64,000 nucleotides of DNA from Citrifermentans bemidjiense Bem (GTDB lineage: Bacteria > Desulfobacterota > Desulfuromonadia > Geobacterales > Geobacteraceae). The notes beneath the pieces are model-generated. The model did not search any database. It saw nothing but the letters and a program-made list of their open reading frames with translations, and was not told the DNA's origin. The translations under genes and the position numbers were made by a program. Shown here one piece after another: positions 2,201 to 30,288 of the stretch. The stretch's first letter is position 1; every line of letters starts with the position of its first letter. The stretch covers positions 1,239,501-1,303,500 of the forward strand of contig NC_011146.1 of NCBI RefSeq assembly GCF_000020725.1, read 5' to 3'.

Positions 2201-3634
2201 ATGAGTCTGCTAGAGATATTGACACTGCTGTTCAAGCGGAAAAAAGCAATCATCGGGATTTTTCTGCTGCTTTTTGCCTCTGCCGCGGCTTATACGCTGG
2301 CCCAGGATCCGACCTATGAAGCCAAAGCCAGCATCTTAGTGAAGATGTTTCGTGAGGACCCTTCCAGACCTGGGATGGAAGCTGACGCGAACAACCTGCC
2401 TCGTATAGTGAGCCAAGACGAGGTTGTCAATGCGGAGATACAGATCCTGACCGGTCGTGAATTGGCGGAAAAGGTGATAGGGACGCTGAAGATGGAGGGA
2501 ATCTATCCCCACCTTGCCTCAGGGGAACTGCTGCCGGCCGCCCGTATGGACCAGGCCGTGCAAACCTTTGCCCAGAGCCTGCAAGTGCAGGGGGTCAGGA
2601 AATCCAACGTAATCGCTGTCTCTTTTCAGCACAACGACCCCGAAATGGCCGCCAAGGCTGTGAACCTGTTGATCGAGGCCTTTAAGGAGAAGCATCTTGC
2701 TGTGCACAGCGACCCGCAATCATCTTTCATTGCGAGCCAATTGGCCTCATTTGAGGTGAAGCTTAAGGAATCGGAGAAGCAATTGCAGGATTACCAGCAA
2801 CGAACTGGGGTCTATTCGATCGACGAGCAAAAAACCCTACTGTTGAGGCAGCACACCGAATTGGACTCAGCCTACCGGCAGGCGGTCACGAACGTTCGGG
2901 AAAACCAGGACAAGATTGCTTCCTTGAAGCTGCAGATGAAGTACATCACCGATAACAAGGACAGGTACACCCAAACCGAAAGGGACCGTATCATCATCGA
3001 GGCAAAATCAAAGTTATTAGAACTGCAGCTCAAGGAACAAGAGCTCAAGATGAAGTACACCGACAAAAACAAGCTGCTTGCCGACACAAGGAAGGAGTTG
3101 GAGGTTGTCAGCAAGTTCCTGAAGGACCAGGAAGAGATCATCATAGGGAAGGTGAAGACGGCGAATCCGGTTTACCAGAGCATGGAGACGGACCTGTTCC
3201 GCGTGCAGGCTGACCTGAAGTCGCAAACGGCAAGGGCCGACGCGCTTAAGTCCCAGTTGAGGCAGCTTGATGGGGAAATAGCTACACTTGATCGGAGCCA
3301 GAACCAGATTCAGGACCTGAAGCGGCAGATAGTGTTGAACGAAAAAAATTACATGGCTTACATGGAGAGGAACGAGGATGCACGCATCTCGGATGCGATG
3401 AACCGTCTGAAGTTGTCGAATATCAGCGTAATCCAGCAGGCAGTGGCACCGGCAAAGCCGATCAAGCCCAATATATCATTGACACTTGCCTTGGGTATGG
3501 TCTTCGGTATGGCCGCGGGACTCCTGTATGCCTATGCTGCGGAAAGACTCAGCCAGACATTCACGGATCCCAAAGGTGTGGAAAAGTACCTCGAACTGCC
3601 GGTTCTCGTGACAGTCCCGCTAAAAAAGGATTAA
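2201..3634 (+). CDS. Wzz/GumC-family chain-length and export protein
   Basis: This 477-residue inner-membrane protein has a Wzz N-terminus (MSLLEILTLLFKRKKAII, then a first membrane segment ending near residue 32), a long periplasmic coiled coil between about residues 165 and 400, and a second membrane segment near residues 428-447. The motif PAKPIKPN just before that last segment is typical of GumC/Wzc proteins. No kinase domain is fused to it; the P-loop partner is encoded separately at 4834. It sets chain length and bridges the membranes to the Wza-like pore. It is 28 bases after the pore gene and 3 bases before the ATPase gene, so the three form one operon. Confidence 0.92.
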   Translation: MSLLEILTLLFKRKKAIIGIFLLLFASAAAYTLAQDPTYEAKASILVKMFREDPSRPGMEADANNLPRIVSQDEVVNAEIQILTGRELAEKVIGTLKMEGIYPHLASGELLPAARMDQAVQTFAQSLQVQGVRKSNVIAVSFQHNDPEMAAKAVNLLIEAFKEKHLAVHSDPQSSFIASQLASFEVKLKESEKQLQDYQQRTGVYSIDEQKTLLLRQHTELDSAYRQAVTNVRENQDKIASLKLQMKYITDNKDRYTQTERDRIIIEAKSKLLELQLKEQELKMKYTDKNKLLADTRKELEVVSKFLKDQEEIIIGKVKTANPVYQSMETDLFRVQADLKSQTARADALKSQLRQLDGEIATLDRSQNQIQDLKRQIVLNEKNYMAYMERNEDARISDAMNRLKLSNISVIQQAVAPAKPIKPNISLTLALGMVFGMAAGLLYAYAAERLSQTFTDPKGVEKYLELPVLVTVPLKKD

Positions 3635-24154: not shown

Positions 24155-24573
24155 CTACCCTATGGTGATGTTCCCGCCGGTGACCGTCACGGGGATTTTC
24201 GCCAGCGGCCTGGGAGGGGGGCCGCCGAGAACGGTTCCGTCGGTGGCGAACTGCCCGCCATGGCAGGGGCAGAGGAAGTGCTGCTGCTCCTTTACCCACT
24301 GCACGATGCAGCCTAGGTGGGTGCAGACCGCGGAAAGGGCGATCATTTCCCCCCCTTGGTTTTTACCAGTACCGCGGAAGATCCGCCGTACTCGAAAAAC
24401 TTTGCCTCACCCTCCTGCAGATCCGCGGCGGAGATGACCAGCTTCTGCAGCCCGGTCGCGCCGGACCTCGGAGCCATAAACCGAAAGACCGGGTAGCCCG
24501 CGGCAACTGCTGCCGCCGCCGCTGTCCCGGCCAGACATACCCCTAGAAACTTCCTCCTGCCGTCACTATCCAT
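24155..24573 (-). CDS. Rieske iron-sulfur protein, reading frame broken by -1 at a G7 run
   Basis: The start is ATG 24573 behind gggggaggg. The N-terminus has a Tat-type motif (RRKFLGV) and a membrane anchor, then LVISAADLQEGEAKFFEYGG. The frame meets TGA at 24345-24343 just after a run of seven G (minus strand; 24355-24349). The rest of a perfectly conserved Rieske domain, with cluster ligands in CTHLGC and CPCHGG, continues in the -1 frame to TAG at 24155. One extra G, or one -1 slip on G GGG GGG, joins them as KTKGGEMIALSAVCTHLG, exactly as the family requires. Other possible explanations are a sequencing undercall, a phase-variable tract or two coupled ORFs (ATGA overlap). Confidence 0.85.
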
Positions 24574-24610
24574 GCACCCTCCCCCGGTCGGCCTTTTCTG
24601 GCCCGGCTCA

Positions 24611-24638
24611 AGTATAATGACTGCCCCTGCCATTTCAA
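24611..24638 (-). promoter_or_regulatory. Sigma-70-type promoter of the Rieske/cytochrome b operon
   Basis: On the minus strand TTGAAA (24638-24633) and TATACT (24616-24611) are separated by 16 bases. The -10 lies about 38 bases before the Rieske start. The rest of the 320-base divergent gap (24574-24892) holds no gene I can support. Confidence 0.5.
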
Positions 24639-24892: not shown

Positions 24893-25225
24893 ATGGAAAC
24901 CTATTACGCCCCAAAGGATCTCGGGAATTTCGCCGAAATAGGAAAGGACGCGCCGGAACTGGCCGGGAAGTTCTTCGCCTACTACAACGAGGTCTTCACC
25001 GAGGGGGAGCTGACCGAGCGGGAGAAGGCACTGATAGCGCTCGCCGTAGCCCACACCGTCCAGTGCCCTTACTGCATTGACGCCTACACCCGAGCCTGCC
25101 TGGAGAAGGGGTCCCATCTGGGCGAGATGACCGAGGCGGTCCATGTGGCGACTGCCATCAGGGGGGGAGCATCCCTGGTGCATGCGGTGCAGATGCGCAA
25201 GATCGCCGAGAAGCTCTCGCTGTAG
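24893..25225 (+). CDS. AhpD-like peroxidase-family protein of the arsenosugar operon
   Basis: I start at ATG 24893 (aaaggagagagg upstream) rather than the far upstream start of the open frame. The 110-residue product is an AhpD/CMD-like helical protein with the redox motif CPYC in AVAHTVQCPYCIDAYTRACL and the downstream histidine of VHVATAIRGG. The best match is the arsenosugar biosynthesis-associated peroxidase-like family, which is usually encoded beside arsS, as here, 10 bases upstream. It may protect or reduce the ArsS substrate or its selenocysteine. Confidence 0.85.
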   Translation: METYYAPKDLGNFAEIGKDAPELAGKFFAYYNEVFTEGELTEREKALIALAVAHTVQCPYCIDAYTRACLEKGSHLGEMTEAVHVATAIRGGASLVHAVQMRKIAEKLSL

Positions 25226-25235
25226 AGGAGAGGGG

Positions 25236-26216
25236 ATGCCGATGGCTGCAAATCCGTTGGGAGGAGGAAGCTTTGGCGAGGCGCTGGCGAAGCACGGCCT
25301 GCAGTTGACCCGCGAGGAGACCCGCGTGCTGCAGGTGAATGTGGGACTTGCCTGCGACCTAAGCTGCCGCCACTGCCATCTGGAGGCGGGGCCGCAGCGG
25401 GTCGAGATGATGGACCGAGACACCATGGACGCGGTGATCGACTGTGCCCGCCGCTTCCGGTTCCAGAGTATTGACCTGACCGGCGGAGCTCCTGAGCTGG
25501 TCCCGGACCTCGACCGCCTGGTCCGCTCGCTCGCCCCGCTTACCGACCGGCTCATGGTCCGGACCAACCTGGTGGCGCTGAATAGCGGAGAGGGATCTGC
25601 CTTGTGTGAGCTCTACCGCGAACTCGGCGTAGCTTTGGTGGCTTCCCTGCCGGCCAGTAACGCCGCGCAGACCGAGGCGCAGCGCGGTGAAGGGGTCTGG
25701 GGGCGGAGCGTCGACGCCCTGAAGAGGCTGAACACGCTGGGTTACGGGATGCCGGATAGCCCACTTAGGCTCGACCTGGTCTCAAACCCTTCCGGGGCCT
25801 TTCTTCCTCCCCCCCAGCAGCAGGCCGAGCAGAAGTTCAGAAGCGACCTTTCCCGCAGGCACGGCATCAGCTTCAACTCCCTTTACACCTTCGCCAACGT
25901 GCCGCTGGGGCGATTCCGCTCTTTTCTTGAGCGTTCAGGGAATCTGGAGGGTTACCTGGCGCAGCTTGCCGACGGTTTCAACCCCTGCAGCGTCGCCGGG
26001 CTCATGTGCCGCTACCAGCTCTCCGTCGACTGGCGCGGCAGGCTTTTCGATTGTGATTTCCATCTGGCGCAGGGGGGGTGGTACGGGGGGGAGGAGACCC
26101 ATATCTCGACGCTCGCCGAGCTGCCGGCGCCGGGGACGATGATCCCGACCGCCGACCATTGTTTCGCCTGCACCGTAGGCGCCGGCTTCACCTGAGGGGG
26201 GAATATCGTGGCCTAG
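25236..26216 (+). CDS. arsS: Arsenosugar biosynthesis radical SAM (seleno)protein ArsS
   Basis: The radical SAM cluster motif is C-x3-C-x2-C in ACDLSCRHCHLEAGP. The C-terminal part has the ArsS signature cysteines (NPCSVAGLMCRYQ, DCDFHLAQGG, HCFACTVGAG). The frame reaches TGA at 26193-26195, exactly where relatives have the conserved Cys of a GAGSSCGG-like tail; read as Sec the product ends GAGFT-U-GGNIVA before TAG at 26214-26216. A SECIS-like hairpin follows the TGA. I therefore annotate 326 residues including Sec. Known members make the 5'-deoxyadenosine-derived arsenosugar from methylated arsenic. The ATG at 26236-equivalent choice is 25236 (aggagagggg upstream); 25242 is possible. Confidence 0.85.
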
Positions 26217-26231
26217 TTAGGCCGCTTCCCC
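26196..26231 (+). promoter_or_regulatory. Bacterial SECIS-like hairpin after the ArsS UGA
   Basis: Directly after TGA (26193-26195) the RNA can fold as GGGGAA (26198-26203) with TTCCCC (26226-26231), a 4-base bulge, then GTGGCCT (26208-26214) with AGGCCGC (26219-26225), closing the tetraloop AGTT. The loop G in second position and a distance of about 20 bases from the UGA fit the bacterial SECIS rule for SelB binding. The hairpin overlaps the 3' end of the convergent gene at 26213. Confidence 0.7.
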
Positions 26232-26755
26232 GGCTCCTTGGATAATAGCGACGGCTTCCTGGCCGGCCGGAACCGTTTTCCCCGATACTTTTCCCTCTCC
26301 TCCCAGTAGCGCCGGTACTCCTGGTTTCTGAGTTCCCTCATAGTGGCCAAGTCGTATTTCACTAGCTGCGCGGGAACCTCCCCCTTCCGGACCATCCCCC
26401 AGGGGCCGTCGTAGGAGCTGGAGTGGTACCAGCCTCCCTGGCGCCACAGGTAGTATCCCTGGGGCAGGTAGAACAAGTCCTGCGGCACCCCCACCGCGAC
26501 CCCGACCCCCAGCCGCTCCGGAAACAGGAACTCCGGCGCAGGCTTCGCCGCCGGCTTCACCGGCTGCGGCTGCTTTACCCCCTCTGCATCCCTGCGGCCG
26601 TTTACCTGCGGCTCCGGCTGGCGGGGCTCGGTGTAGCGCCGGTGGTATTCCTCGTACATCTGGTAAGGGTAATAGGTATAGAAGGCCCCCCGGGCCGGGC
26701 CGCTGCTGGAGAGAACCAGCAAGGCGGCGACTACTGTGCATCCATGTCTGTTCAT
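26213..26755 (-). CDS. Exported hypothetical protein with a YxxWRxGxW-type core
   Basis: The product is about 180 residues with a signal peptide ending near ARG-AFYTY. A Pro/Gln/Lys-rich linker precedes a small domain with LPQGYYLWRQGGWYHSSSYD, which resembles the short tryptophan-rich repeats of periplasmic proteins in delta-proteobacteria. The tail is very basic (YRRYWEEREKYRGKRFRPAR). No function is known to me. The start is ATG 26755; a GTG two codons upstream is equally possible. Its stop overlaps that of arsS on the other strand, so there is no terminator between them. Confidence 0.6.
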   Translation of the reverse strand: MNRHGCTVVAALLVLSSSGPARGAFYTYYPYQMYEEYHRRYTEPRQPEPQVNGRRDAEGVKQPQPVKPAAKPAPEFLFPERLGVGVAVGVPQDLFYLPQGYYLWRQGGWYHSSSYDGPWGMVRKGEVPAQLVKYDLATMRELRNQEYRRYWEEREKYRGKRFRPARKPSLLSKEPGKRPN

Positions 26756-26993
26756 AGGCACCCCCGTACGAAACCTCTCAGGATGTGAGACATCCGAGGT
26801 TGACGCTCCTTTCTGCTTCCAGCTGCATCCGCGGCCCCTTTTTTATGGTCGATTAGAAAACACCAATTTATTCTCTTGGGCCGCGATTAAAAGTCAAGCG
26901 CGATTTTTCATTGGGAGATGGCTGGCTTCTGATATATAGTGTCCGCTGTCAGGCGTAAGATCCTGCAGTAACAAGGGGTTGAAGGGGGATACG

Positions 26994-28429: not shown

Positions 28430-28493
28430 TTTGCCTTGACCGTTCACTGTGGTCACGCACCCTTTCGGGTGCCCGGGCGAATGGAGCAATCGC

Positions 28494-28910
28494 ATGAAAA
28501 ACATAAAGTTCACAGCCGTCAACTGCTCGCTGGTTGTTGCCGTGGTGGTCATCCTCGTTGTCTCGGCCTTTTACGTGCGGGTTGGCGCGACCGCCGACCA
28601 GGTGGTGGTGCTGCGCACCTCCGGGATGACCTGCAGCAGTTGCGTCAGCAAGATAACCAAAGTGCTGCAGTCCCAGCGCGGAGTGGCCGCCACCGAGATC
28701 GATCTGGCCGGCGGGCTGGTCCTCGCCGGTTACGATTCCAAGCAGGTGGCGCCCGATAGTTTGGCGCGGACCGTCGCCGCAGCGGGGTTCAAATCCGAGG
28801 TCGCACAGGTGCTGACCCCTCAACAGTTCAAGTCGATTGTTGGGCGGGACCTGGGGGGGCAGGCCGCGGGAGGCTGCTGCGGTCCGCGCGGTTGCGGCAG
28901 CGCTCAGTGA
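28494..28910 (+). CDS. Exported heavy-metal-associated (HMA) domain protein
   Basis: The 138-residue protein has an N-terminal membrane segment or signal (VVAVVVILVVSAFYVRVGA), then an HMA domain with the metal-binding GMTCSSC at about residues 43-49 and the ferredoxin-like ending VAPDSLARTVAAAGFKSEV. The tail GGCCGPRGCGSAQ adds three cysteines. It should bind Cu(I), Zn or another soft metal on the periplasmic side. The next gene encodes a DUF2318 protein, so the pair probably works in metal uptake or in delivery for metalloprotein assembly. Confidence 0.82.
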   Translation: MKNIKFTAVNCSLVVAVVVILVVSAFYVRVGATADQVVVLRTSGMTCSSCVSKITKVLQSQRGVAATEIDLAGGLVLAGYDSKQVAPDSLARTVAAAGFKSEVAQVLTPQQFKSIVGRDLGGQAAGGCCGPRGCGSAQ

Positions 28911-28996
28911 TCCGCCGGTAGCTACTTTTGGTAGAGCCTTGCTGAGAGTGCTTCAGCACAAAAGCCCCGGCTCGACCGGGTGAAAAGGAGTAATTC

Positions 28997-29470
28997 ATGG
29001 TTTGTAAATGCAGAACAGGCCTCAAGTACCTCTTGCTCGTATCCCTGTCGCTGCTCCTGGCGGCCACGGTTGCCTTCGCCTTCAACCTCCCCGGAATGGG
29101 GAAATACGACAAGGTGAAGCCGGTAAACGGCAGCGTAACCATCCCGGTATCCAAGGTAAGCGACGGCAAGGCCCATTTTTTCAAGATCGTAGAAGGAGGG
29201 AAGGAGATCAACTTCTTCGTAGTGAAGGGGAGCGACGGAATACTCCACACCGCCTTTGACGCCTGCGACGTCTGCTATCGCGAGAAAAAAGGGTATGAGC
29301 AACTTGGGGACAAGATGGTCTGCAAGAACTGCGGCATGAAGTTCGCGTCGGTACGCATCGGCGCGGCCAGCAGCGGCGGTTGCAACCCATCCCATCTCCC
29401 GGCGAAGATAGACGCGGCCAACGTCAGCATCACGGTTGACGACCTCAAGGCCGGGGCCCGCTTCTTCTAA
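28997..29470 (+). CDS. DUF2318 exported metal-binding protein
   Basis: The 157-residue protein has a signal peptide (LLLVSLSLLLAATVAFA) and the DUF2318 motifs: AHFFKIVEGGKEINFFVVKG, FDACDVCYREKKGYEQ, MVCKNCGMKF and GGCNPSHLP. The paired cysteines (CDVC and CKNC) are expected to bind Fe or Cu; relatives include FtrD-type iron-transport proteins. Its partner is the HMA protein 86 bases upstream. The leader between them has a TGCTGA/TCAGCA hairpin but no riboswitch core that I recognise. A large imperfect GC-rich hairpin at about 29490-29540 may end this transcript. Confidence 0.85.
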   Translation: MVCKCRTGLKYLLLVSLSLLLAATVAFAFNLPGMGKYDKVKPVNGSVTIPVSKVSDGKAHFFKIVEGGKEINFFVVKGSDGILHTAFDACDVCYREKKGYEQLGDKMVCKNCGMKFASVRIGAASSGGCNPSHLPAKIDAANVSITVDDLKAGARFF

Positions 29471-29598
29471 GAGCCTTCCACATGCTTGGCAATTGCCCCC
29501 TCCGCTCCGGCCACCGCCGGTTGGGGGGGAGCAATTACCTCCCCACCCGCCATCCTTTCCCCTCCTTTGCGCCGTCGGCATCCCTTTCGAGGCATTTC

Positions 29599-29628
29599 TT
29601 GACACCCGTCCTTCCCGCGGTGTATTAA
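29599..29628 (+). promoter_or_regulatory. Sigma-70-type promoter
   Basis: TTGACA (29599-29604) and TATTAA (29623-29628) are spaced by 18 bases, 30 bases before the start of the gene at 29659. Confidence 0.6.
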
Positions 29629-29658
29629 ACATAGGCGAGCAGCACCAGGGGAGAATCG

Positions 29659-30288
29659 ATGACCAAGGACAAAGACGAACGCAAGAGGTCTCACCTCAAG
29701 CTCGTAGTGAACAACCAGGAGATCAGGAGCGCCAGACCTTCCGCTGCCGAGCAGGAATTCGTGCCGCTGGAGGAACTGATCGCCAATCGCGACCTGTTCC
29801 GGCCCGCTTTCTACCGCGGTATGGGGAGACTGCAGACCAAGGGATACCAGACATTGGAGCGTTTCCTGGCCGGAAGGGGTGCGCCCTACGGGATCGATCC
29901 CATCCACGGCAAGGTACTGGTGCTTCCCGCCGGCAACGTTTCCCCTGAATCACTGGAGTTCGGTTCGCCGCAGGACGAGCTGCTGCTCAGCATCTCAGAG
30001 GATGCGGGCGGTTCCGGCCTTTGCTTTTCCCTGGAAATGATCCTCCCTTACTTCAGTGAGGACGACGCGGTCATGGAAGAGGCGCTTTTGTTCGCGCCGG
30101 TCCTGCAGTACGGCGCGCTGTTCCTCGAGGAAAACCCCCACGACGGCATGCTGGACCTGATCTACCGGCTGGCCGTTCCGCTGTTCCCCCCCCTTCTCAC
30201 CACTCGCCTCGCCGAGAGGATGTTCTCCATATTCTCCTTTGAACTGAAGGAAACCTTCCTGGCGCTTTCCGACTATCCGGAGGGATAA
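29659..30288 (+). CDS. Hypothetical cytoplasmic protein
   Basis: I do not recognise a family. The 209-residue product has a charged N-terminus (MTKDKDERKRSHLKLVVNNQ), no signal or membrane segment, and an acidic, hydrophobic helical C-terminal half (LLFAPVLQYGALFLEENPHD, LIYRLAVPLFPPLLTTRLAE). It has its own good promoter (29599-29628) and looks like a single-gene unit. A decayed copy of its last 22 codons lies 115 bases downstream at 30403. Confidence 0.6.
   Translation: MTKDKDERKRSHLKLVVNNQEIRSARPSAAEQEFVPLEELIANRDLFRPAFYRGMGRLQTKGYQTLERFLAGRGAPYGIDPIHGKVLVLPAGNVSPESLEFGSPQDELLLSISEDAGGSGLCFSLEMILPYFSEDDAVMEEALLFAPVLQYGALFLEENPHDGMLDLIYRLAVPLFPPLLTTRLAERMFSIFSFELKETFLALSDYPEG

Follow-up and report, generated by a model that had tools for sequence, protein, structure and literature searches.

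Where does the ArsS protein of Citrifermentans bemidjiense Bem end: at an in-frame TGA seven codons ahead of the next stop, or at that next stop, with the TGA read as selenocysteine (Sec)? We addressed this question in a window of 64,000 nucleotides, the whole stretch of DNA analyzed (contig NC_011146.1, positions 1,239,501 to 1,303,500; coordinates below are those of the window unless a genome is named). A reading made earlier from the letters of this DNA alone, called here the sequence-only reading, had proposed that ArsS is a selenoprotein whose TGA is served by a SECIS-like hairpin.

Results

An in-frame TGA lies at a conserved cysteine position of ArsS

The gene, the TGA and the hairpin elements are arranged as follows.

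25236..26216, plus strand: arsS, radical SAM (seleno)protein of 326 aa with predicted Sec320 and stop TAG (TIGR04167; PF12345, DUF3641; PF04055, Radical_SAM)
26193..26195, plus strand: TGA, predicted to be read as selenocysteine (U320); the column is Cys in relatives
26198..26231, plus strand: lower stem, GGGGAA (26198-26203) with TTCCCC (26226-26231) and a 4-base bulge
26208..26225, plus strand: upper SECIS hairpin, with a 7-bp stem (26208-26214/26219-26225) closed by the loop AGTT (26215-26218)
26214..26216, plus strand: TAG stop codon of arsS, which contributes its A and G to the SECIS loop as positions 1 and 2

The ATG at 25236 is in frame with the TGA at 26193-26195, and the next in-frame stop is the TAG at 26214-26216. 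A plain list of open reading frames under translation table 11 gave the arsS frame as 25143-26195, ending at the TGA, just as the sequence-only reading had expected of an automatic gene caller. Read-through gives a C-terminal end of HCFACTVGAGFT-U-GGNIVA-stop, with the motif GFT-U-GGNIVA, confirming the proposed tail of U-GG-NIVA followed by TAG.

The arsS product scored 369 bits against TIGR04167 (cut-off 300; profile positions 2-303 of 303), which NCBI names rSAM_SeCys, arsenosugar biosynthesis radical SAM (seleno)protein ArsS, and it also matched PF12345 (DUF3641) and PF04055 (Radical_SAM). In an alignment of eight ArsS proteins, the radical SAM cysteines C40, C44 and C47 (CxxxCxxC) were invariant, as were C258, C273, C309, C312 and C/U320, the last followed by invariant G321 and G322. 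PMC13188914, which cites Zhang and Gladyshev 2005 as reference 13, gives the family motif as GxxU, and the window ArsS carries GFTU where members have GxxU or GxxC close to the C-terminus. In the reviews PMC13188914 and PMC9312934, the family stands in tables of predicted selenoproteins as "Radical SAM domain protein", with AAR34688.1 as exemplar. The ArsS selenoprotein is thus already known, and the window holds one more genomic copy of a catalogued family: it exceeds the curated cut-off, its GFTU is a GxxU motif and its predicted Sec is likewise near the C-terminus, and we found no feature setting it apart. A literature search naming bemidjiensis and selenocysteine returned no title on arsS.

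The TGA column is cysteine in relatives, and the reading frame continues beyond it

We compared the locus with its relatives. TIGR04167 was over its cut-off in 86 of the 297 genomes sampled from the phylum and in 103 of 141 genomes of the order, and a scan of named records added 8 ArsS loci, the closest of which, from Citrifermentans bremense, shares 97% protein identity with the window ArsS. All over-cut-off matches flagged with an internal TGA were taken from the phylum and order sets, but only part of those with Cys. This gave 147 loci, each matching the window protein; 5 near-copies and 3 unsortable loci were dropped, and the remaining 139 (of 142 non-duplicate loci) were sorted by a rule that required Gly two residues past the Sec/Cys position. 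The three omissions were a partial locus in which the same TGA and tail are visible (L055), a low-scoring match that falls short of the family cut-off, contains an internal TAG and has no usable C-terminus (L118), and a locus with a shifted frame (L168).

The alignment with Cys-containing ArsS proteins that the sequence-only reading had suggested placed the TGA in a column that is TGA in 56 loci and a Cys codon in 83, bearing out its claim that the codon stands at a conserved Cys ahead of Gly-Gly. A short Gly-containing tail past this position is common to Sec loci and Cys relatives. All 56 Sec loci continue into the tail, one of them (L116) being irregular just ahead of the Sec site, and we saw no relative that ends naturally at the same TGA.

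Of the 19 genus genomes in the order set, the window's own included, 18 carry the TGA in frame. In the shifted locus L168 (genome G339, one contig), the arsS frame is lost ahead of the C-terminus close to a C-run, at ~3134-3290 on the arsS strand, with the Sec TGA and SECIS intact downstream in another frame. Genome G324 has a second, Cys-type arsS copy on another contig (L147 and L160).

The hairpin accompanies predicted selenocysteine codons

According to PMC13188914, the bacterial SECIS (bSECIS) model published by Zhang and Gladyshev in 2005 limits the loop to 3-9 nt, the upper stem to 4-16 bp and the spacing to 16-37 nt, and it requires a G at loop position 1 or 2 and a minimum free energy of <= -7.5 kcal/mol. 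When these limits were applied with a purpose-written script, the window hairpin fell within all of them: its upper stem (GTGGCCT/AGGCCGC) has 7 bp, its 4-nt loop has G at position 2, the TGA-to-loop spacing is 19 nt, and the upper hairpin alone folds at -10.7 kcal/mol. The two-part hairpin at the distance used by SelB is therefore present as proposed. It is like bacterial SECIS elements in loop, stem, loop G, spacing and energy and differs in that arsS's own stop codon sits within its loop. The 51-nt fold alone reached -24 kcal/mol (z -2.07), with 9 of 200 shuffles folding equally well; taken singly, the fold is only moderately unusual, and it is the comparison among loci that lifts it above chance.

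In that comparison, an uninterrupted bSECIS-like hairpin at <= -5 kcal/mol was found in 52 of the 56 Sec loci (all but L090, L094, L095 and L110) versus 9 of 83 Cys loci. At -7.5 kcal/mol, the counts were 41 of 56 and 5 of 83, so that 15 Sec loci miss the stricter value. Ordinary ORF ends in 400 kb of the same genome had a hairpin after 15 of 91 TGA, 12 of 82 TAA and 10 of 77 TAG stops, of which 0, 2 and 1, respectively, had a spacing of 18-21 nt. Fisher's exact p values were 7e-24 (Sec versus Cys loci) and 4e-21 (Sec loci versus the genome's own TGA stops), values that overstate independence because the loci are related. The hairpin thus exceeds chance: it tracks Sec and is mostly missing after Cys.

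Pairing was counted in two ways because a MAFFT alignment of the 56 SECIS stretches placed no gaps despite differing loop lengths. At fixed columns in the 18 genus loci, where a longer or shorter loop was scored as broken, four of the seven upper-stem pairs were standard in 15 of 18 loci, two in 17 and one in 14. With arms anchored on the loop in all 56 loci, 327 of 336 cells were paired compared with a mean of 202 for shuffled arms, a biased count because each hairpin had been selected for pairing. The conserved portion among relatives is the upper stem; the lower stem is variable and not kept base for base.

The genome encodes selenocysteine machinery

A look-up of selA, selB, selC and selD, also suggested by the sequence-only reading, found the full set in the genome: selA (600 bits, cut-off 268), selB (393, cut-off 242), selD (360, cut-off 125) and tRNA-Sec (75, cut-off 47; anticodon tca). 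The selD gene (L018; G000:C1:3972577-3973494 of the genome) has one in-frame TGA of its own, and the selenophosphate synthetase of this organism is probably also a Sec protein. Across the family, selA was over its cut-off in 51 of 55 genomes with a Sec-type arsS, the other four being 62-81% complete. We rejected the machinery as a discriminator between Sec and Cys forms and treat it as permissive evidence only, because selA was also over its cut-off in 57 of the 65 Cys-type arsS genomes searched, and in 11 of 13 inside the Sec group described below.

Sec-type ArsS loci form one main group

With the Sec/Cys column and the tail excluded, a quick tree placed 55 of the 56 Sec loci together with 14 Cys loci in a single set of 69 (SH-aLRT 100). 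The Sec/Cys label requires 7 changes on the tree compared with a shuffled mean of ~44, and at least two changes were forced by strongly supported branches. The simplest reading, dependent on where the tree is rooted, would be one main gain of Sec, several returns to Cys and a separate case, L049. Cys-type ArsS shares with the window ArsS the radical SAM motif, C258, C273, C309, C312 and the residue-320 column; it differs in having Cys for Sec, in the rarity of the hairpin and, outside the Sec group, in having mostly GSSC rather than GFTU. Within the group, 8 of the 14 Cys members have GFTC.

Overlap of the arsS stop codon with the SECIS loop

Among the 56 Sec loci, 43 have an arsS stop codon that overlaps the apical loop identified for that locus. 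In a slightly different set of 43, the stop is the seventh codon after Sec, comprising 26 TAG, 17 TGA and no TAA, while TAA accounts for 4 of the 13 stops located elsewhere and for 11 of 37 codon-7 stops in Cys genes. When codon-7 stops were confined to loci with a G+C of at least 50%, TAA made up 0 of 42 in Sec and 10 of 31 in Cys genes; all of these stop-codon counts treat related loci as independent. Since the equal tail length is common in Cys genes too (37 of 83, and 11 of 14 inside the Sec group), the overlap of stop and loop was probably inherited. The lack of TAA is consistent with a requirement for the loop G. We propose, tentatively and at somewhat less than even confidence, that this family fuses two opposite signals: the loop by which SelB overrides a stop would be built from the gene's own real stop codon, the loop G would limit this stop to TAG or TGA, and Sec insertion might be mechanically linked to termination seven codons later. 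Among the matches listed in a literature search on SECIS and stop or termination codons, no title concerned an in-loop stop, although such work may have been published. The in-loop stop with its missing TAA, and the absence of an ArsM over cut-off described below, go slightly beyond what is known.

Neighboring genes

Two genes adjoin or overlap arsS.

24893..25225, plus strand: partner gene, AhpD-like "arsenosugar biosynthesis-associated peroxidase-like protein" (TIGR04169, 189 bits, cut-off 120)
26213..26761, minus strand: convergent ORF of 182 aa, with its TAG stop (26215-26213) in the CTAG palindrome of the SECIS

The AhpD-like partner has a CPYC motif with Cys rather than Sec. Homologues of this partner were found in 52 of the 56 Sec loci, upstream of arsS, and in 26 of the 83 Cys loci; these are lower bounds, as some loci are short. 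All 52 homologues from Sec loci carry CPYC.

The convergent ORF had no match in Pfam or NCBIfam. CTAG is its own reverse complement, and the arsS stop therefore gives this ORF its stop for free; in 11 of 18 genus loci, this CTAG within the SECIS terminates a minus-strand frame of 130 codons or more. The sequence-only reading had stated that the hairpin overlaps the 3' end of an antisense gene and that this constrains both. The overlap is real, through the shared CTAG, but the constraint is limited, with a homologue of the convergent protein in only 14 of 56 Sec loci. Beyond linking a few bases of the two genes, the antisense overlap calls for no additional explanation.

Elsewhere in the window, next to a cytochrome b gene, a minus-strand gene at 24155-24633 changes frame close to seven consecutive G, which leaves it as two ORFs with an ATGA overlap at 24343-24346; from its CTHLGC/CPCHGG motif, we take it to encode a Rieske iron-sulphur protein. 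The two pieces are in one frame in 20 other loci matching both (two of them near-copies), and the split is either a recent frameshift or a sequencing error. Downstream, 28449-30285 encodes an HMA-domain protein, an FtrD-like membrane iron-sulphur protein and a 209-aa ORF without a Pfam match.

ArsS structure and the search for ArsM

The predicted ArsS structure has a radical SAM fold (mean pLDDT 66.7): the PDB entries that match it best, at TM-scores near 0.5, belong to radical SAM enzymes. Residues 298-326 have a pLDDT under 50, and Sec320 cannot be placed in this structure because confidence at the C-terminus is too low. A PDB sequence search likewise returned a radical SAM match at 2.7e-7; weak PDB matches to a viral matrix protein were judged to be chance.

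In arsenosugar synthesis, the adenosylation of arsenic is assigned to a radical SAM enzyme (PMC12159101, citing the 2021 ArsS paper of Cheng et al.). We searched the genome for ArsM with two models, and no protein exceeded either cut-off: the best score was 70.4 of 263 bits for NF008823 and 46 of 400 for NF038099, and neither of the two best candidates reached an ArsM cut-off. Here, the arsenosugar name therefore derives from homology alone. A 337-aa ORF elsewhere in the genome (L190; G000:C1:1550921-1551361) combines an ArsR-type regulator with a methyltransferase half that is weakly ArsM-like (70 of 263 bits).

Discussion

The ORF that ends at the TGA under table 11 and the modest z of -2.07 for the single-sequence fold are what would be expected if the TGA were a normal stop, the protein ended at Thr319 and the hairpin were incidental. 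We nevertheless consider this highly improbable, for the column is Cys or TGA throughout the 139 sorted loci, the tail beyond it is conserved, the hairpin follows Sec rather than Cys, and the Sec machinery is present. An intrinsic terminator between two convergent genes would account for a hairpin located exactly where arsS and the minus-strand ORF meet. That candidate was rejected as well, and we give it scarcely any weight: no terminator-like site was called at the hairpin on either strand, the hairpin persists in Sec loci although the available DNA of 42 of the 56 yielded no homologue of the convergent protein, and most Cys codons are not followed by it. The aligned column, the hairpin comparison and the Sec machinery instead support the original proposal, and we hold it as almost certain that arsS encodes the radical SAM protein ArsS as a predicted selenoprotein, with SelB and the hairpin directing insertion at residue 320. 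In this mechanism, SelB with Sec-tRNA(Sec) would bind the hairpin just past the UGA, selenocysteine would be inserted at residue 320 in place of a Cys near the C-terminus, and the ribosome would then read six further codons and stop at the UAG in the hairpin loop.

What the selenoprotein acts on is a separate matter. The C-terminal CxxC (C309, C312) and Sec320 probably serve the substrate; during 5'-deoxyadenosyl transfer, they may together coordinate a soft substrate such as trivalent arsenic with high affinity or act on it as a redox nucleophile. The Sec form could be a selenoprotein that is not an arsenosugar enzyme here and handles another arsenical or soft substrate, as the lack of an ArsM over cut-off (NF008823, NF038099) in the organism's own genome and the grouping of nearly all Sec loci in the tree might suggest. 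However, the score exceeds the cut-off of the curated arsenosugar ArsS model, methylated arsenicals could come from neighbours, and the ArsM search covered the organism's own genome with two models; we regard a role outside arsenosugar synthesis as a serious contender but on balance doubtful. The missing ArsM thus raises the question of what Sec-type ArsS does in these bacteria.

For the selenoprotein assignment itself, the consequence is direct. An apparently truncated ArsS is, as the comparison confirms, a predicted full-length selenoprotein, and a gene call ending at 26195 is seven residues short, with the likely functional one among them. The in-loop stop would provide a compact natural case of SelB recoding and normal termination coexisting within ~20 nt.
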